Assembly (NCBI RefSeq): GCF_026151205.1
Contig: NC_087078.1
Span: 6,031,675 to 6,095,674, forward strand
Source: Bolinopsis microptera
Lineage: Eukaryota > Ctenophora > Tentaculata > Lobata > Bolinopsidae
Reading direction: 5' to 3'
Length of the DNA stretch: 64,000 nt
Shown: positions 3,271-52,812 of the stretch, one piece after another
How the letters are laid out: the number at the start of each line of letters is the position of its first letter
How positions within the stretch are numbered: position 1 is the first letter of the stretch
Position numbers and translations under genes: made by a program
The notes under the pieces: model-generated
What the model saw: only the letters and a program-made list of their open reading frames with translations
What the model was told of the DNA's origin: nothing
Databases searched by the model: none

Positions 3271-6200
3271 TCAGATTCCCCAGCCGTTCCCCGCATTCCA
3301 AGGGTTATTATAACCGTTGTTATAGTTACCGTTGTTAACCTGATAGTTGGTTCTGTATCTCACTTCATTGCTACAGTGTTGTGTGGAGGACCAGGTAAAG
3401 CACTTCACCAAATAGGAGGAACACTCTTTCACCTTAATGAAATAGTCGTGATCATATGTTATGTAAGGTAAAGCGTAATCCTCGAATCAATTATAGAATT
3501 GTATAGCTATTTTTTGAAAATTTGCTAACCACATTTTTGTTTTCTGTAAAACTTATTTCTGTTGAAATGTGGACTATTGGTTTAAAATCAACTCTTCAAA
3601 TTCATTTTCAAGAAAGACGGTAAATTGTACAAACCACAGTTTGTCTCCCCTTGATGCAGCGTCCCAGTCTATTCAGACAACTACACAGCGCGTTGTTAAC
3701 CCTCCGGATACAGCGAGGAGTGGTATCATCTGCACAGGTGAACTTTCTTCGTGTGGCACGGTAGCCTTCGTCACACGTTAGGAATGGCAATTTCTGAGGG
3801 ACTGATCAGGCTTCCGGTGGGAACGGAGAATTGTCCGTTTTTAACCTATTGTTGAATGCAGATCAGTATATAACATTACATGTACAGTAAATTAATTCAG
3901 TCAGCATATGTAATGATAATAACCTTTTTCTATAAAGATTTCGCATTGAAGATCATAGATTCGATATTTTTCGAGTGGTGAATGTAGGTTGTTTAGCATA
4001 AATTTGTTCCAAATCAGTATGCGGGAACGCACAACCGTAAAAATGAAAAAATAATGGAACCGTCGAAATTTTTACTTGACCTGTCAAGTCTAAATTGACT
4101 AAGTCAAGAGATTTTTTATTCACATCACCTTAACACCAGTCAAGTGTACTCTATAATAAATTTTACCTTTGGACATATGCAGCTACTTTGCCCCTTGGTT
4201 ATTGAGCTGGAAGTGGCTACAGCGCTACTGGGAGGGAACGTCGCACTCGTGCTGGCGACTCCCGGTGGACTGGCAGTGGGGATTCCAGGTGGACTGGCAG
4301 TAGGAACTCTCGGTGGACTGGTAGTTGGGACTCCCGGTGGACTGGTAGTTGGGACTCCTGGTGGACTGGTAGTTGGGACTCCTGGTGGACTGGTAGTTGG
4401 GACTCCTGGTGGACTGGTAGTTGGGACTCCTGGTGGACTGGTAGTTGGGACTCCCGGTGGACTGGTAGTTGGGACTCCTGGTGGACTGGTAGTTGGGACT
4501 CCTGGTGGACTGGTAGTTGGGACTCCTGGTGGACTGGTAGTTGGGACTCCCGGTGGACTGGTAGTTGGGACTCCTGATGGACTGGTAGTTGGGACTCCCG
4601 GTGGACTGGTAGTTGGGACTCCCGGTGGACTGGTAGTTGGGACTCCTGGTGGACTGGTAGTTGGGACTCCCGGTGGACTGGTAGTTGGGACTCCCGGTGG
4701 ACTGGTAGTTGGGACTCCCGGTGGACTGGTAGTTGGGACTCCCGGTGGGCTGGTAGTTGGGACTCCTGGTGGACTGGTAGTTGGGACTCCCGGTGGACTG
4801 GTAGTTGGGACTCCCGGTGGACTGGTAGTTGGGACTCCCGGTGGACTGGTAGTTGGGACTCCTGGTGGACTGGTAGTTGGGACTCCTGGTGGACTGGTAG
4901 TTGGGACTCCTGGTGGACTGGTAGTTGGGACTCCCGGTGGACTGGTAGTTGGGACTCCCGGTGGACTGGTAGTTGGGACTCCTGGTGGACTGGTAGTTGG
5001 GACTCCCGGTGGACTGGTAGTTGGGACTCCCGGTGGACTGGTAGTTGGGACTCCTGGTGGACTGGTAGTTGGGACTCCCGGTGGACTGGTAGTTGGGACT
5101 CCCGGTGGACTGGTAGTTGGGACTCCTGGTGGACTGGTAGTTGGGACTCCCGGTGGACTGGTAGTTGGGACTCCTGGTGGACTGGTAGTTGGGACTCCTG
5201 GTGGACTGGTAGTTGGGACTCCCGGTGGACTGGTAGTTGGGACTCCCGGTGGACTGGTAGTTGGGACTCCCGGTGGACTGGTAGTTGGGACTCCCGGTGG
5301 ACTGGTAGTTGGGACTCCTGGTGGACTGGTAGTTGGGACTCCCGGTGGACTGGTAGTTGGGACTCCCGGTGGACTGGTAGTTGGGACTCCCGGTGGACTG
5401 GTAGTTGGGACTCCTGGTGGACTGGTAGTTGGGACTCCCGGTGGACTGGTAGTTGGAACTCCCGGTGGACTGGTAGTTGGGACTCCCGGTGGACTGGTAG
5501 TTGGGACTCCCGGTGGACTGGTAGTTGGGACTCCTGGTGGACTGGTAGTTGGGACTCCTGGTGGACTGGTAGTTGGGACTCCCGGTGGACTGGTAGTTGG
5601 GACTCCTGGTGGACTGGTAGTTGGGACTCCTGGTGGACTGGTAGTTGGGACTCCTGGTGGACTGGTAGTTGGGACTCCTGGTGGACTGGTAGTTGGGACT
5701 CCCGGTGGACTGGTAGTTGGGACTCCTGGTGGACTGGTAGTTGGGACTCCTGGTGGACTGGTAGTTGGGACTCCCGGTGGACTGGTAGTTGGGACTCCTG
5801 GTGGACTGGTAGTTGGGACTCCCGGTGGACTGGTAGTTGGGACTCCCGGTGGACTGGTAGTTGGGACTCCTGGTGGACTGGTAGTTGGGACTCTGGTGGA
5901 CTGGTAGTTGGGACTCCTGGTGGACTGGTAGTTGGGACTCCTGGTGGACTGGTAGTTGGGACTCCTGGTGGACTGGTAGTTGGGACTCCCGGTGGACTGG
6001 TAGTTGGGACTCCTGGTGGACTGGTAGTTGGGACTCCCGGTGGACTGGTAGTTGGGACTCCTGGTGGACTGGTAGTTGGGACTCCCGGTGGACTGGTAGT
6101 TGGGACTCCTGGTGGACTGGTAGTTGGGACTCCTGGTGGACTGGTAGTTGGGACTCCTGGTGGACTGGTAGTTGGGACTCCTGGTGGACTGGTAGTTGGG

Positions 6201-7981
6201 ACTCCTGGTGGACTGGTAGTTGGGACTCCTGGTGGACTGGTAGTTGGGACTCCTGGTGGACTGGTAGTTGGGACTCCTGGTGGACTGGTAGTTGGGACTC
6301 CTGGTGGACTGGTAGTTGGGACTCCTGGTGGACTGGTAGTTGGGACTCCTGGTGGACTGGTAGTTGGGACTCCTGGTGGACTGGTAGTTGGGACTCCTGG
6401 TGGACTGGTAGTTGGGACTCCTGGTGGACTGGTAGTTGGGACTCCCTGGTGGACTGGTAGTTGGGACTCCCGGTGGACTGGTAGTTGGGACTCCTGGTGG
6501 ACTGGTAGTTGGGACTCCTGGTGGACTGGTAGTTGGGACTCCTGGTGGACTGGTAGTTGGGACTCCCGGTGGACTGGTAGTTGGGACTCCTGGTGGACTG
6601 GTAGTTGGGACTCCCGGTGGACTGGTAGTTGGGACTCCTGGTGGACTGGTAGTTGGGACTCCCGGTGGACTGGTAGTTGGGACTCCCGGTGGACTGGTAG
6701 TTGGGACTCCTGGTGGACTGGTAGTTGGGACTCCTGGTGGACTGGTAGTTGGGACTCCTGGTGGACTGGTAGTTGGGACTCCTGGTGGACTGGTAGTTGG
6801 GACTCCTGGTGGACTGGTAGTTGGGACTCCTGGTGGACTGGTAGTTGGGACTCCTGGTGGACTGGTAGTTGGGACTCCTGGTGGACTGGTAGTTGGGACT
6901 CCTGGTGGACTGGTAGTTGGGACTCCCGGTGGACTGGTCGTTGGGACTCCCGGTGGACTGATCGTTGGGACTCCTGGTGGACTGGTAGTTGGGTCTCTTG
7001 GTGGACTGGTAGTTGGGACTCCCGGTGGACTGGTAGTTGGGACTCCTGGTGGACTGGTAGTTGGGACTCCTGGTGGACTGGTAGTTGGGACTCCTGGTGG
7101 ACTGGTAGTTGGGACTCCTGGTGGACTGGTAGTTGGGACTCCCGGTGGACTGGTAGTTGGGACTCCTGGTGGACTGGTAGTTAGGACTCCTGGTGGACTG
7201 GTAGTTGGGACTCCTGGTGGACTGGTAGTTGGGACTCCTGGTGGACTAGTAGTTGGGACTCCCGGTGGACTGGTAGTTGGGACTCCTGGTGGACTGGTAG
7301 TTAGGACTCCCGGTGGACTGGTAGTTGGGACTCCTGGTGGACTGGTAGTTGGGACTCCTGGTGGACTGGTAGTTGGGACTCCCGGTGGACTGGTAGTTGG
7401 GTCTCTTGGTGGACTGGTAGTTGGGACTCCCGGTGGACTGGTAGTTGGGACTCCTGGTGGACTGGTAGTTGGGACTCCTGGTGGACTGGTAGTTGGGACT
7501 CCTGGTGGACTGGTAGTTGGGACTCCTGGTGGACTAGTAGTTGGGACTCCGGTGGACTGGTAGTTGGGACTCCTGGTGGACTAGTAGTTGGGACTCCCGG
7601 TGGACTGGTAGTTGGGACTCCTGGTGGACTGGTAGTTGGGACTCCCGGTGGACTGGTAGTTGGGACTCCTGGTGGACTGGTAGTTGGGACTCCTGGTGGA
7701 CTGGTAGTTGGGACTCCTGGTGGACTGGTAGTTGGGACTCCTGGTGGACTAGTAGTTGGGACTCCTGGTGGACCCGGTTGACCCGGTGGACCCGGTGGAC
7801 CCGGTGGACCCGGTGGACCCGGTGGACCCGGTGGACCCGGTGGACCCGGTGGACCCGGTGGACCCGGTGGACCCGGTAGACCCGGTGGACCCGGTGGACC
7901 CACCTGACCCATAGCGAACCATAATGGATTGTTTGATTGAAGTGCAAACAATACAAATATCAGTCTTTTGATCGACATCAT
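3271..7981 (-). CDS. secreted collagen/mucin hybrid with giant 8-residue repeat array and Cys-rich C-terminus (frame broken by three 1-nt indels)
   Basis: Three exons on the minus strand: 7981-4167, 3793-3635 and 3480-3271, all joined in phase 0. The start is the ATG at 7981, giving a signal peptide ([15 protein letters not shown] core, probable cleavage after WFA). Fifteen Gly-X-Y triplets follow (7900-7766), mostly GPP with one GLP and one GQP. Next come about 146 copies of GVPTTSPP (24 bp each, down to about 4240), the last ones degenerating to PTASPP, then SSCICPK and a GTAAAA donor. Exon 2 (53 codons) has six Cys, starting [12 protein letters not shown], reminiscent of a sushi-domain tail. 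Exon 3 (69 codons plus TGA) has three Cys and an Asn/Gly/Trp-rich end. Single-base indels at about 7549, 6444 and 5890 shift the array out of this frame, and TAA stops follow (7301, about 7183) in the shifted frame. Both array ends keep the GVPTTSPP frame, so sequencing or assembly error is likely, but a null allele is possible. The exon 2 donor (GTTTGT) and exon 3 acceptor (TTCGAG) are weak. A role in extracellular matrix, mucus or capsule is inferred. Confidence 0.7.
4240..7765. repeat. 24-bp tandem array (about 146 units), coding
   Basis: The + strand unit is ggtggactggtagttgggac followed by tcct or tccc. Units are nearly identical. The commonest difference is the T/C base, which falls on a third codon position (proline CCA/CCG) in the minus-strand GVPTTSPP frame. 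Rarer changes include ggactaGTAG, gggTCTCTT and gtTAGg units. All minus frames and at least two plus frames are largely open because 24 is a multiple of three, so several long frames here are by-products. Single-base indels lie at about 5890 (loss), 6444 (gain) and 7549 (loss). The junction with the GPP tract at 7765 is abrupt, while the other end (4230-4310) decays gradually. Confidence 0.95.
7766..7900 (-). other. Gly-X-Y collagen-like tract (15 triplets)
   Basis: 135 bp of 9-bp units (ggtggaccc on +) encode 15 uninterrupted Gly-X-Y triplets directly after the signal peptide. The count is in the 12-16 range typical of cnidarian minicollagens, but the minicollagen hallmark C-x3-C-x3-C-x3-C-x3-CC is not seen anywhere in this gene. 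Confidence 0.9.
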
Positions 7982-30086: not shown

Positions 30087-32632
30087 TTAAGGACACGTTC
30101 ATTTGAGTTTGAGGATATTGGTAAATATAAGTGACCCTATTAAAAGGCACAGTGTAGTTGACTTTGTCACACTATGAAATTACACAAACCCTTGATGGTT
30201 AGGATAATCGTCTCATCCTCTAGGCTAACTTTGTCACATAACGATATCTTAATCAGGTGATAAGATATCGCTTAAATACGGCCGGCACGGAAATGGTTAC
30301 ATTGTCACACTATAAACATGTGACAGAGTAAATATGGACCCCTTGCTGCCGTTTTTGACCAAAATTTTGAGTGTCCAGTTGATTGGATGTGTACATATGA
30401 CCATTACCTACATATTTGACGACTTTTTTCGTTAGATGGTGCACTCAGATTTACTCTGTCACACATTTAAGAAAATATGTGAACAATGTTTAGGGAACCC
30501 TGATAAGCAATGCTGAGTAGTGTAGGTTTAGTTAATGGCCTGGAAGTGCTAGGAATTTTTATTATATCATATAGTCGCAAGGAATTAAAACACAGAAGGC
30601 ACAGACAAGTTTACTTTGTCACATAATCTTGATGATATCTGAACATGTGTGAAATTGAACAAATAATGATATACCAGCTTAAACCCTTTGTATTACGTAC
30701 TATGGATCAAACAACACTGCTAGTACCATGCACCAGTCACATAAATCATTAACGTGTGGTAATATGTTAACAGTGTCACAATTAATCTACCACAACATGG
30801 TCAAAAATAGGGTAATTTCGTCACAAAAAAATTATCATAACTCTGTCAGCTCCTTGCTGGCAAAATAACTAGTTTATCGACATTTTTTTGATGATAAAAT
30901 TACATAGTATTCTAATAGAGGTATAGTTCTTCAAAATAGGGGCAAGACATGTTTACTTTGTCACATCAGTTATTATAAGAGTTAGGTAATCGTTATCAGA
31001 TTAACCGATCTTTTTCGTAGTATGGATCAATAAATATAGGCAATAAAGCATCCTAATTCCTATGCCAATTTTAACACACTATCTTGATATTGTTGGGGCA
31101 GGAAAAGTTAATTTTGTCACATGTTCAGTGTCTTTGACAAATTAATCTAAAATTGTTAAACTTGAGCTCTGATGTTCTGGACAACATTCTAACAATCGTT
31201 TCTGAAAGAATGTTGAATTCTAATACAGTTATAGATCTTCAAAATAGGGGCAAGACATGTTTACTTTGTCACATCAGTTATTATTAGAGTTAGGTAATCG
31301 TCATCACATTAAAATATATTTTTTTGTAGTTTGGATTGATTTATTTAGGTAATAAAGCAGCCTATGCTAATTTTTACACACTGTCTTGAAATTGTTGGGG
31401 CAGGAAAAGTTAATTTTGTCACATTTTTAGTGACTTTGACAAATTTAACCTGAAATTGTTAAACTCGAGCTCTGATGTTCTGGACAATATTCTACCAATC
31501 GTTTCTGAAAGAATGTTGAATTCTAATACAGTTATAGATCTTCAAAATAGGGGCAAGACATGTTTACTTTGTCACATCAGTTATTATTACAGTTAGGTAA
31601 TCGTCATCACATTAACATATATTTTTTTGTAGTTTGGATTGATTTATTTAGGTAATAAGGCAGCCTATGCTAATTTTTACACACTATCTTGAAATTGTTG
31701 GGGCAGGAAAAGTTAATTTTGTCACATTTTTAGTGACTTTGACAAATTTAACCCAAATTGTTAAACTTGAGCTCTGATGTTCTGGACAATATTCTACCAA
31801 TTTTTTCTGAAAGAATGTTAAATTCTAATAGAGTTATAGAATATATAGATCTTCAAAATAGGGGCAAGACATGTTTACTTTGTCACATCAGTTATTATAA
31901 GAGTTATTACTTATTATAAGAGACTATTTCATTATATAATCATTGTTTTTAACCTATTTACGATTTCGTTTAATTTTTTGTGACAATGTAAACATCAACT
32001 GATCTTAACTTGCATCAACTACATTGTCATCATGTAAAGTTTTCCCGCCTTTCAAACCAAAATCAGATATAAATAATTCGCCCAAAATTTTAAATTCCAT
32101 ATATTGTGACAGAATTAACCTCATTTCCCAATAACAAAGTGCCTGTATTAGCTTACTATTCAAAGCAACATATTTTAAGGCTATGATTGGTACTCCGTAC
32201 TTGGTAGATCAACCATCAAATAATGAGTAAAAAGGGTTTTGAGGACACCTCACAGTAGAATAGAGGTATGGTATTCTGAGTGTGACAAAGTTACCTAAAT
32301 ATTGCCTTGTAACCGGTCGATCCGTGCCCTTTAACCAATGTTGTATCATAATTGTTAGATTGACCTAATCTACTATGTTCCAGAGCAAGGAATGATAATT
32401 AGACAACTGCAGTTAACTAAGTCACACAAAATGTGACATTTGAACCATTATAGTGCCTAACAACAATAGATTTTCTTTCTGAGCAGTGCATATGGGAGTA
32501 TGGGTTACGCGGCTAATGTTCAGAACTTCTGAACGTGCTAGGTTAATAGATGTCAAAATTAAGCCACTATCGTCAAAAACGCTATTATTTTTGTTTACCA
32601 ATATCCTCAAACTCGAATGAACGTGTCCTTAA
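30087..32632. mobile_element. 2.5 kb non-autonomous element with 39-bp TIRs, TTAA ends and a GTCACA motif array
   Basis: Positions 30087-30125 and 32594-32632 are inverted copies with one mismatch. Each outer end is TTAA (TTAAGGACACG...CGTGTCCTTAA) and similarity stops there, as expected for a TTAA target-site duplication of the piggyBac type or a related MITE. No long frame exists inside. The interior contains about 20 GTCACA sites, mostly as TTTGTCACA in the left and central part and as the complement TGTGACAAA toward the right end, plus about 3.3 copies of a ~303-bp satellite (30910-31905). The array may hold binding sites for a trans-acting transposase or a host factor. That is inference. 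Confidence 0.8.
30910..31905. repeat. satellite of about 303 bp inside the TTAA element, 3.3 units
   Basis: Units start at 30910, 31218, 31521 and 31823 (partial) with ttctaata.ag.tatag, then cttcaaaataggggcaagac, then tttactttgtcacatcag. Units 2 and 3 are the most alike, and unit 1 is more diverged. Confidence 0.9.
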
Positions 32633-47865: not shown

Positions 47866-49669
47866 ATGAAACTGTTTTGTTTTGTTCTGCTGTCCTGTCT
47901 AGCCCTGCTTTGCCAAGGATTTAGTGTTCTACCACAGACGGAGTATGAGGTGCTGGTGGAAGAATTATCAGGGCAAGAGTTTGGAGAGGGCTGTGACCTT
48001 GAAGATACTGACAAACTGCAGTTTTTGGATATATTCGGCATCTTAAAAGCCCTCCGTCGTCTGAGTAAGTGAGGTTACTTTTTAGAGATCTAATCTTAGA
48101 TAAAATGCTTGGATTTTATTTAAAAGTAAGTTTGTAGTTCAAGGATCAGCTGGCCTTCTAGGCAGGGTTCCAGCTAAACTATAAAGTTACTTCTAGGCAG
48201 GGTGGTTGTAGCTAGAATCTAGATTACATCCCACCACAGAGAGGATTAAGTCAGGTAACACAACACAAGATTATAAAGTTATAACTACGGAGTGTGAACA
48301 TGTAGGTTTGAACTGAAATATAGGAGATTTATCCAGACTGTCCGGTCACGAGTGGCTTCTTTGTCTAGAAGTAGCCAGACTATAGAAGTCGGCTCCGAGA
48401 ATTGTTAAGCCTGATCATCTGTTGGGAAGAGTTGCGCTAACAGGGTCAGACAACTACTTGGTTGGAGTGAGATGAGTAAAAGATGAGTTATGGCTTAATG
48501 GAGGTGAGACATGGCCTATAAGAGACATTTATAAGAGACATATAGACCAGATAACAATTGGAGCTGATCCAGGATGCTTATATTTTAAAAACATCAAACA
48601 TCGTGCTAAAAGTCATGACGAAACGAGGGCACTACCACGGTGAGATTAACTCAACAGTTTTTAACTTTATTGTTGATCTGTCTACTCATAAAAAGTGATA
48701 TAAGAGCTTTGGAAGGTACCAAATAATAGGTCACCCGTGTTACGTAAAGGTGGCAAAATTACAGAAACTTTGAAGGAGAGCTCTTGGAAAGTGTTGATGG
48801 AATATGGAATTAATATCCTGTTAAGACAAATTACTTTTAAATACCTAACAAAATACTGAAATTACTTAAGCGGTATGTAACTGTAAGGTGATTTGACGCT
48901 GAACACCAGTTGACTGAGGCAACATAGTTGGCAATATTTTAATACTTATATTGAATGGATAGACAGTTACTACCGATTCGAATAGCACCGTCATAGCTAT
49001 ATTGACGCCACAAGGTGTCTATAGCTATTACTATGGTAAGTCAACTACGCCCTAAGAAGTGTTAGATTTAGAACCAATGCAGAGGTTCATCAAACTTTTA
49101 CCAAATTTAAAGGTTTCTTTGAACAATCTATTTCTGCAGAAAAATAAGCTTATTTGACATTAAGCACGTAAATTTTGCCGATAAACTTTGTCTATTTTAT
49201 CGCAAATTTTTCATATTTATATTTAAGTATTATGTAATGGACCGAAAGCGTTTTCGTCAGGTGTGGCTAGTCCACACCTTAACTGCTAAATAATATGAAG
49301 CATTTATTTCACTTCAAGATGAAAAGTTCAACTATACTAGAAAATGCAAGTGAATTTTTAGAAAATTCGTTAACTAATATTATTTCAGAACTGGAATTAA
49401 TATGTAGCGCAACAACAACCGAGCTGTTGGATCTTCTGCTTCTTCCGAGATGCCTGAGGAACATTGTCCATGTTGCTCGCAACATCATCTGCCAGGACTA
49501 CATCCCACCTACTTACACCCCACCACCCACCACTGCCCCACGTCCTGAGCCCACTACCACTCCACCACCAACGACAAATCCGACAACCCCTCCTAGACCA
49601 ACTACCACTCCACCTCAAACCACCACTCCCCCACCTCTACCAACCTCCTCTGCACCAGCTAGCCTGTAA
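47866..49669 (+). CDS. secreted 4-Cys protein with Pro/Thr-rich tail, paralogue 1
   Basis: Two exons, 47866-48064 and 49389-49669 (TAA), joined in phase 1, encoding 159 residues. The donor is CTGA|GTAAGT and the acceptor TTATTTCAG. Residues 1-18 are a signal peptide (MKLFCFVLLSCLALLCQG). The mature domain (19-103) is predicted helical with Cys43, 72, 88 and 101 (spacing C-x28-C-x15-C-x12-C) and ends with ARNIICQD. The tail (about 104-159) is Pro/Thr-rich, a likely site of mucin-type O-glycosylation. Cys count and spacing match no family I can name; four Cys distinguish it from saposins, which have six. It lies head to tail with a longer paralogue 1.9 kb downstream. Secretion and glycosylation are inferred from sequence. 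Confidence 0.85.
48065..49388. other. intron of secreted paralogue 1
   Basis: 1.3 kb intron. It is five times longer than the equivalent intron of paralogue 2 (253 bp). No repeat family or embedded gene was recognised. Confidence 0.6.
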
Positions 49670-49974: not shown

Positions 49975-50829
49975 CTCAATTTATCTAGTTCAAGGGGGCT
50001 ATATTTATGAGTCGCATTTGAACTTGATTTCTCTTGGAGAATTTCTCTTTAGACTCTTAACTTGCGAACAAATTGAAGCAGCAAACTTTAGGCTAGAAAC
50101 TTTATTGAATTGAAATAATCATTCCACGTAACAACGTCTTCTTCAGTTCTGTAATAAAATTGTTAAACATATGTAAAAATTAACGACGGAAAGAAATTTA
50201 AAATAACATTAAAACAAAAACAGAGAAATAAAATTTACGAAATATGACCCAAAAATGTAATTGCAAAAAATGTCAAAACAACAAAAAATACGACAAGAAG
50301 AATTAAGAAATGTAAGCTAATACAACTAAATACTGTACTACTCATGATACTAAACTAATTAATAAACGTAAAACTGGTTGTTCAGAATTCACAGTTCATG
50401 TAATCAATAATGTATTGATAGGACTATCTTGGATGGTAACCATGACAACCGAGTTATCGTTGCTTAAGTGCTGATTTTATCATTAGTTTTTACACATGAA
50501 CTGTGAATTCTGAACAACCAGTTTTACGTTTACTAATTAGTTTAGTATCATGAGTAGTACAGTATTTAGTTGTATTAGCTTACATTTCTTAATTCTTCTT
50601 GTCGTATTTTTTGTTGTTTTGACATTTTTTGCAATTACATTTTTGGGTCATATTTCGTAAATTTTATTTCTCTGTTTTTGTTTTAATGTTATTTTAAATT
50701 TCTTTCTGTCGTTAATTTTTACATATGTTTAACAATTTTATTACAGAACTGAAGAAGACGTTGTTACGTGGAATGATTATTTCAATTCAATAAAGTTTCT
50801 AGCCTAAAGTTTGCTGACTCAATTTATCT
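49975..50829. mobile_element. fold-back element with 322-bp arms between the paralogues
   Basis: Arms 50079-50400 and 50495-50816 are inverted copies with only about two mismatches noticed, around a 94-bp spacer. A 12-bp direct repeat, ctcaatttatct, lies at 49975-49986 and 50818-50829. If it is a target-site duplication, the element is 49987-50817 and its right end has lost about 90 bp relative to the left. No frame is inside. The near-identity of the arms indicates a recent insertion directly behind the poly(A) site of paralogue 1. Confidence 0.85.
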
Positions 50830-51608: not shown

Positions 51609-52812
51609 ATGAAACTGGTTTGTGTCGTACTGTTGGCCTGTCTTGGCCTGTCTTACGCTTTCAGCGTTTTGCCGGAGGTAGACTATGAAGAAGTTATGGT
51701 GGAGTTATCAGTAGATGTGGACTATGATCAACTGTTGGAGGGTTGTCCATTGGAAGCTGCTGATAAAGTGCAGTTTTGGGATATCTGGAAGATTATCAGA
51801 AAACTTCATCAGCTCAGTAAGTGCCAAACTTCGTTTGGTAGAATTTATAGTCAATCTAAATTTCCCTTTAATATTTTTATGACCACTATGGTCGTTGGGA
51901 GAGAGTACTTACATGAATTGTAAAACCTTATCTATCTTTTTACCAAGTTACATGTACATTGCTTTCTGTCCAAACAATTAGATTGTGGATCTGTGATGTA
52001 ACGCAAACCGTCTTATAAATTGCTTCCATTACTTATTTCCCTAGGTTTGATTCTTGCTTTTCTTTTCAGAGTTGGAGATTGTTTGTGGACAAACAGCGAA
52101 AGAACTTGTGGCTCTTCTCAATCTTCCAAGGTGTCTGAAAAGACTTGTTAGAATTGCTCGAAACATTGTGTGCAGAGATTGGACACCTCCAACTAAACCA
52201 CCTACCACACCTTCACCAACTACTCCTCAACCCACAACTACTCCTCAACCAACAACCACTCCTCAACCAACAACCACTCCTCAACCCACAACCACTCCTC
52301 AACCCACAACCACTCCTCAACCCACAACCACTCCTCAACCCACAACCACTCCTCAACCCACAACCACTCCTCAACCCACAACCACTCCTCAACCCACAAC
52401 CACTCCTCAACCTACAACCACTCCTCAACCCACAACCACTCCTCAACCCACAACCACTCCTCAGCCTACAACTCCTGAACCAACCACCCCGGAACCAACC
52501 ACCCCGGAGCCAACCACTCCAGAACCAACCACTCCTGAACCAACCACTCCTGAACCAACCACTCCAGAACCAACCACTCCAGAACCAACCACTCCAGAAC
52601 CATCCACTCCTGAACCAACCACCCCGCAGCCAACCACCCAAGTGGTAACCCCTGAGGTAGACACTCCGGAGCCAACAACCCCTGAACCAACCACTCCGGT
52701 ACCCTCAACTCCGCAGCCCTCCACTCCGGAACCCTCAAGTCCTGAACCATCATCCGCCGAACCAACAACAGCTGAGTCTACAACAGTAGGACCATCATCA
52801 AAGGTTCTCTAA
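51609..52812 (+). CDS. secreted 4-Cys protein with long TPQPTT/TPEPTT tail, paralogue 2
   Basis: Two exons, 51609-51816 and 52070-52812 (TAA), joined in phase 1 at the same codon as paralogue 1, encoding 316 residues. The donor is CTCA|GTAAGT and the acceptor TTCTTTTCAG. Residues 1-18 form a signal peptide (MKLVCVVLLACLGLSYAF). The mature domain has Cys46, 75, 91 and 104 with exactly the spacing of paralogue 1. Shared strings include FSVLP, LPRCL and ARNI. The tail (about 110-316) is about 14 TPQPTT repeats, then about nine TPEPTT-type repeats, then a degenerate Ser/Thr/Pro/Glu-rich end. The first block is nearly identical at DNA level (18-bp units) and must be recently expanded. The switch from Gln to Glu makes the distal tail acidic. 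It is probably an O-glycosylated secreted mucin-like protein. Confidence 0.88.
52205..52640 (+). repeat. 18-bp coding minisatellite in the tail of paralogue 2
   Basis: Units of actcctcaacccacaacc (TPQPTT) run to about 52470, then actcctgaaccaaccact-type units (TPEPTT) to about 52640. It creates long open frames on both strands that are by-products. Length variation between alleles is likely. Confidence 0.95.

Follow-up and report, generated by a model that had tools for sequence, protein, structure and literature searches.

The stretch of DNA analysed here (hereafter the window) comprises 64,000 nucleotides of the ctenophore Bolinopsis microptera (RefSeq assembly GCF_026151205.1, contig NC_087078.1, forward-strand positions 6,031,675 to 6,095,674), and between positions 7981 and 3271 of its minus strand it carries what we read as a gene particular to its lineage, coding for a structural protein that is secreted and probably O-glycosylated: a collagen-nucleated mucin, whose long repeat array contains three one-base length changes that are most likely consensus errors. 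We hold this reading, taken as a whole, with middling confidence. The parts of the proposed gene, in the order in which they would be transcribed, are as follows.

7907 to 7981, minus strand: ATG and hydrophobic leader (Kyte-Doolittle peak 2.32), a probable signal peptide
7766 to 7900, minus strand: 15 Gly-X-Y triplets, all GPP except one GLP and one GQP
4257 to 7773, minus strand: array of 24-bp units encoding GVPTTSPP (Tandem Repeats Finder, 146.6 copies with 96% matches; direct count, 146 units)
4167 to 4256, minus strand: Ser/Thr-rich tail of the array exon, ending ...CICPK and followed by a GT donor
3635 to 3793, minus strand: proposed exon 2 (53 residues, 6 Cys), placed by phase and edges
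3271 to 3480, minus strand: proposed exon 3 (69 residues, 3 Cys), with an Asn/Gly/Tyr-rich end and a stop

The initial annotation, made from the letters alone, had proposed a signal peptide, 15 collagen triplets and about 146 copies of an octapeptide, and closer analysis bears out a hydrophobic leader, as a probable signal peptide, together with the triplets and the array. The frame opens at the ATG at 7981 of the minus strand and continues directly into the hydrophobic leader. At the DNA level the triplets are 15 tandem 9-bp units (7767-7901), 13 of which are identical, and the translation matches Pfam Collagen (PF01391) with an E-value of 2.6e-10 (40.4 bits, against a curated cut-off of 27.2); the tract is extended in register by a GQV upstream and by the GVP of the first array unit, giving 17 triplets. 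The leader, the Collagen match and the array follow one another on the same strand, and these features, with the Cys-rich end, are far beyond chance. The array itself spans about 3.5 kb, and its copy number is nearly the same whether taken from the repeat finder or from the direct count; exact GVPTTSPP is encoded by 134 of the 143 full-length units, while the final units grade into the Ser/Thr-rich tail. With 37.5% Pro, 25% Thr and 12.5% Ser, the octapeptide falls within the compositional definition of the Pro/Thr/Ser tandem repeats of mucin-like proteins, and O-glycosylation is suggested because of this composition alone. When a 74-base piece of the array was searched against the 265-Mb genome, all 68 matches fell at this locus.

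The choice of strand requires some care, since the substitutions within the array hardly help. Eight of the 15 kinds of base change seen among the units are silent in the GVPTTSPP frame, where about 4.6 would be expected by chance (22 of the 72 possible changes; p 0.055), and the best frame of the opposite strand reaches the same 8 of 15 (p 0.109); the silent changes are thus weak evidence for coding and do not tell the strands apart. We chose the minus strand because the leader and the collagen tract are in register with the first array units. The array could conceivably be read from the plus strand instead, as LVVGTPGG repeats, or be an untranslated minisatellite. Plus-strand open reading frames (ORFs) of 587, 191 and 375 residues do cover most of it; however, the ORF list shows neither a leader nor a known domain beside the array on that strand (though the plus-strand ORFs were not scanned against Pfam), and with leader and collagen standing on the minus strand we regard this explanation as very improbable.

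The initial annotation had also placed collagen and array in one chain of about 146 copies, and such a chain, unbroken, is absent from the assembly. Sorted by length, 143 of the 146 units have 24 bp, two have 23 bp (starting at 7567 and 5911) and one has 25 bp (starting at 6464), so that the length changes along the gene run -1, +1, -1 and sum to -1; these had gone unmentioned. The interruptions, together with the stop that ends the collagen frame, are the following.

7545 to 7551, minus strand: one base short at the G run of unit 9 (23 bp)
7301 to 7303, minus strand: TAA at which the collagen frame closes in the assembly, 226 residues from the ATG
6440 to 6448, minus strand: one base long at the G run of unit 55 (25 bp)
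5889 to 5895, minus strand: one base short at the G run of unit 78 (23 bp)

As assembled, the collagen frame encodes nine octapeptides and then slips into a frame-shifted reading of the same units (ESQLPVHQ type). Close inspection reveals that all three length changes occur at the G run adjoining the one often-variable site of the unit, which among 143 units is A in 87, G in 55 and T in one. In the 25-bp unit this site reads A followed by GGG, as could arise from a consensus built of units or alleles that differ there. Because the length changes sit at this one often-variable site, we favour an artefact: the three one-base changes most likely arose as errors in building the consensus of a tandem array, a view that we hold loosely and that leaves the animal's own gene open. 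Folding of the DNA as a cause of the changes finds no support in a 401-base piece containing the third of them, which scored a z of -0.83 relative to shuffled sequences.

Alternatively, the frame breaks may be real, the gene then being either in decay or the source of a 226-residue protein (leader, collagen, nine octapeptides, and ten full ESQLPVHQ-type copies plus a partial one), with the rest of the array a minisatellite. This is how the assembled sequence reads, and units with altered residues cluster just past the first break, where they make up 5 of the 45 full-length units of the second segment, versus 4 of the 98 in the remaining three segments. Three of those four are, however, the last three units at the edge of the array, and the 68-unit last segment contains just one altered unit apart from them, which argues against general decay. 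Within the second segment two kinds of altered unit are each present twice, and this repetition suggests the copying of blocks rather than general decay. With the length changes, moreover, all at one kind of site, real breaks appear unlikely to us.

Several other observations weigh against a continuous gene running from the collagen to the proposed third exon. The tail lies in a different frame from the collagen, and the assembly offers no single frame that joins the two. Nearby frames that are open throughout, which encode 253 residues (with a Pro/Thr array of its own), 307 residues (a rhodopsin-type 7tm receptor), 575 residues (a C2H2 protein) and 394 residues, count in favour of the gene, but they were chosen for their length and openness and are therefore a biased yardstick and no proof that the assembly is accurate elsewhere. 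At the two ends of the gene, simple matching detects neither a TATA box over the roughly 420 bases ahead of the ATG nor an AATAAA over the roughly 870 bases that follow the stop (ATTAAA variants occur at 2766 and 2464). The second intron is weak, with a GTG|GTTTGT donor and an acceptor that lacks a clear pyrimidine tract. Finally, the C-terminal region stands isolated: the tail and exons 2 and 3 match no Pfam family at an E-value of 1 or better, no PDB chain was found for the tail and exon 2 at an E-value of 10, and in the genome the tail and exons match their own locus plus a single further place with an E-value of 2.3, which is most likely noise. In the genome, Pfam and PDB, the Cys-rich end thus has no convincing paralogue, family or structure.

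That annotation had placed an 11-Cys C-terminal region on two further exons. The tail and the two conceptual exons do contain 11 Cys (separated by 1, 8, 12, 7, 8, 1, 6, 26, 6 and 8 residues), with GT/AG edges and joins in phase 0, and the first splice donor is good (AAAG|GTAAAA); the exons themselves remain conceptual, given the weak second donor and acceptor. It is therefore possible, although on balance doubtful, that the exon with collagen and array is real but is not completed by exons 2 and 3, the chain instead stopping soon past the donor or being spliced in another way. The weak second intron and the lack of any homologue found for either exon speak for such an ending, as does the short read-through that can be read from the sequence (VKFIIEYT, then a stop), whereas the good donor of intron 1, and two exons that are each open, rich in Cys and joined in phase, speak for the ending proposed here. 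A weak AlphaFold2 model of exon 2 (two helices; mean predicted local distance difference test score 59) was not used as evidence.

A query of leader, collagen and repeat gave 79 matches in the genome, from the scoring of 150 of the 245 candidates of a first look. Away from this gene, the matches are stretches resembling collagen (32-59% identity), most of them over the leader-collagen part of the query; several extend a little way into the repeat, and one, on contig C6, spans query residues 29-78 of 81. Three of the off-locus places were read on both strands, and none has a Pro/Thr/Ser array: the C6 place (L040) has a GLP repeat within a 390-residue frame, L038 has a GGPGEE repeat within a 432-residue frame, and L039 has no frame of at least 60 residues with four Gly-X-Y triplets and eight Pro. 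Among the best-scored candidates and these three loci, we thus found no second gene that combines collagen with a Pro/Thr/Ser array, although a distant relative could be missed, and in the openly available literature none of the titles and opening lines of abstracts that were listed describes a collagen-plus-octapeptide protein. The initial view of a collagen-mucin structural protein consequently stands in part: a secreted structural protein in which collagen is coupled to a Pro/Thr/Ser repeat is the best reading of the anatomy, and no second gene of this build was found, but the assembly lacks the unbroken chain.

Proteins that combine some of these elements are known. Bacillus BclA-type glycosylated collagen-like proteins also form trimers of glycosylated repeat chains, but they are bacterial and there the glycosylated repeat is the collagen itself. 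Gel-forming mucins carry VWD/CTCK-type Cys domains, none of which were detected in the tail (Pfam, E-value 1) or in 93 scanned ORFs of the window (E-value 0.001). Minicollagens have 12-16 Gly-X-Y triplets and Cys domains at both ends, which in some members are non-canonical (PMC7981951). The gene described here resembles them in its leader, in a collagen tract of about 15 triplets that lies within this range, in a proline-rich flank and in a Cys-rich end, and differs from them (as they are portrayed there) in that a Thr/Ser-rich octapeptide repeated 146 times takes the place of the polyproline flank, no Cys domain precedes the collagen, and the pattern C-x3-C-x3-C-x3-C-x3-CC is absent. The N-terminal translation contains no Cys before the collagen, and the pattern occurs neither in the tail nor in any of the six frames of the window. 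Because this canonical motif is absent, we would not file the gene as a minicollagen, and the lead toward a capsule-wall protein given in the initial annotation fails on the same ground. That it is nevertheless a minicollagen or cnidocyst wall protein of a cnidarian, its proline-rich region having overgrown, appears to us the slightest of prospects. The triplet number would suit such an origin, a giant relative of the minicollagens (NvNCol-7) is on record (PMC12549020), and the non-canonical Cys domains of some members (PMC7981951) keep the exclusion from being full; against it stand the missing canonical domain, in the tail and in every frame of the window, and the lack of Cys ahead of the collagen.

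Mixtures of collagen with other repeats do occur elsewhere. NvNCol-7 combines about 1000 residues of discontinuous collagen and SPPSPP-type degenerate triplets with minicollagen Cys domains, and a collagen XVIII-like chain of Nematostella carries a mucin-like insertion; as far as the source describes them, the two show that mixtures of such elements exist (PMC12549020). With our gene they share either a long chain in which Gly-X-Y mixes with degenerate triplets or the pairing of collagen with a mucin-like part, whereas here, compared with NvNCol-7, the collagen is just 15 triplets and the long part is a single octapeptide. Cnidarian proline-rich protein 1 (CPP-1) has a comparable stiff proline-rich stalk and Cys-rich cross-linking ends, but Cys domains stand at both of its ends and its polyproline reportedly induces no triple helix (PMC6910907); our gene, in contrast, has a collagen tract and one Cys-rich end. 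The nematode mucin DPY-6 likewise joins a large mucin-like stretch to a C-terminal Cys domain, the cysteine cradle; the available part of its description mentions no collagen tract (PMC11304992), and the tail here matches no Pfam family at an E-value of 1 or better. From its sequence features, the gene is best seen as a variant within the broad group of proline-rich or mucin-like chains with Cys ends, to which CPP-1 and DPY-6 also belong.

The remainder of the window and its surroundings contain other repeat-rich sequences. Two related, secreted-looking genes lie on the plus strand (47866-49669 and 51609-52812; matching parts 52-54% identical), each combining a leader and an acidic stretch with a short Cys segment and a repeat of Pro and Thr, which in the second gene reads TTTPQP; their scanned pieces match no Pfam family. 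A genome query from the second gave 21 matches at an E-value of 1 or better, of which four are these two genes and nine belong to a tandem cluster on contig C1. The space separating the two mucin-like genes holds a near-perfect inverted repeat (50070-50825; 332-base arms, 99% complementary, separated by 92 bases), and a tandem repeat with a 303-bp unit occupies 30909-31906 (3.3 copies, 91% matches). The 93 ORFs scanned against Pfam had been hand-picked from 189 of at least 58 residues, a list from which those lying on the array or on certain simple repeats had already been removed; one gave a weak zf-RVT match and there was no other. Neither a tRNA nor an Rfam match at gathering score was found in the window. 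In the genome as a whole, a search for the COX1 family, which succeeded in 8 of 14 control genomes, returned no hit, so mitochondrial DNA may be missing from the assembly; searches for GFP and Chitin_bind_4 likewise gave none, but they failed on their controls too and are therefore no sign of absence. To its left, the 575-residue C2H2 zinc-finger frame (L034:7263-8987, contig C7) consists mostly of 84-bp tandem units and is open throughout; to its right, the 394-residue frame (L035:5880-7061, contig C7) contains a 12-copy array of an 18-bp unit, looks by eye like a membrane protein and matches Pfam only below the cut-off.

In animals, (GPP)n tracts are hydroxylated and form very stable triple helices, and they are established as triple-helix seeds. 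Prolyl hydroxylation stabilises triple helices (PMC11304992). The (GPP)15 tract at the N-terminus, if hydroxylated on its prolines, would form a short, stable triple helix that gathers three chains. Beyond it, each chain would extend as a stiff Pro-rich and Thr/Ser-rich stalk of about 1170 residues, hydrated if glycosylated, and disulphides at the Cys-rich end could cross-link the trimers or anchor the chain. The product would then be a mucin shaped like a brush or a bouquet, at work in mucus, glue, a tube or an outer coat. In this scheme we infer the trimer, the glycosylation, the cross-linking, the site of use, the intact frame and the splicing.

The repeat may itself derive from the collagen triplets. 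When the octapeptide is parsed as GVP-TT-SPP, a nine-base stretch of its DNA departs from the collagen unit GGTCCACCG in two positions, and in one where the variable site is G; such a likeness allows a collagen origin but is no proof of it, since proline codons alone give much of it. One could go further and suppose that the mucin-like stalk grew out of collagen, with two triplets (one having exchanged Gly for Ser) split by two Thr and multiplied about 146 times, that the GPP trimer nucleates three giant glycosylated arms, and that length changes in the array switch between full and truncated chains among alleles, a combination that we consider improbable. One-base length changes in long coding arrays can escape the eye, and a gene model may stand or fall with them. 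Should the chain indeed be made, collagen would here nucleate a naturally trimeric mucin, interesting as a material and, if the derivation is true, as an example of collagen triplets giving rise to a mucin repeat.

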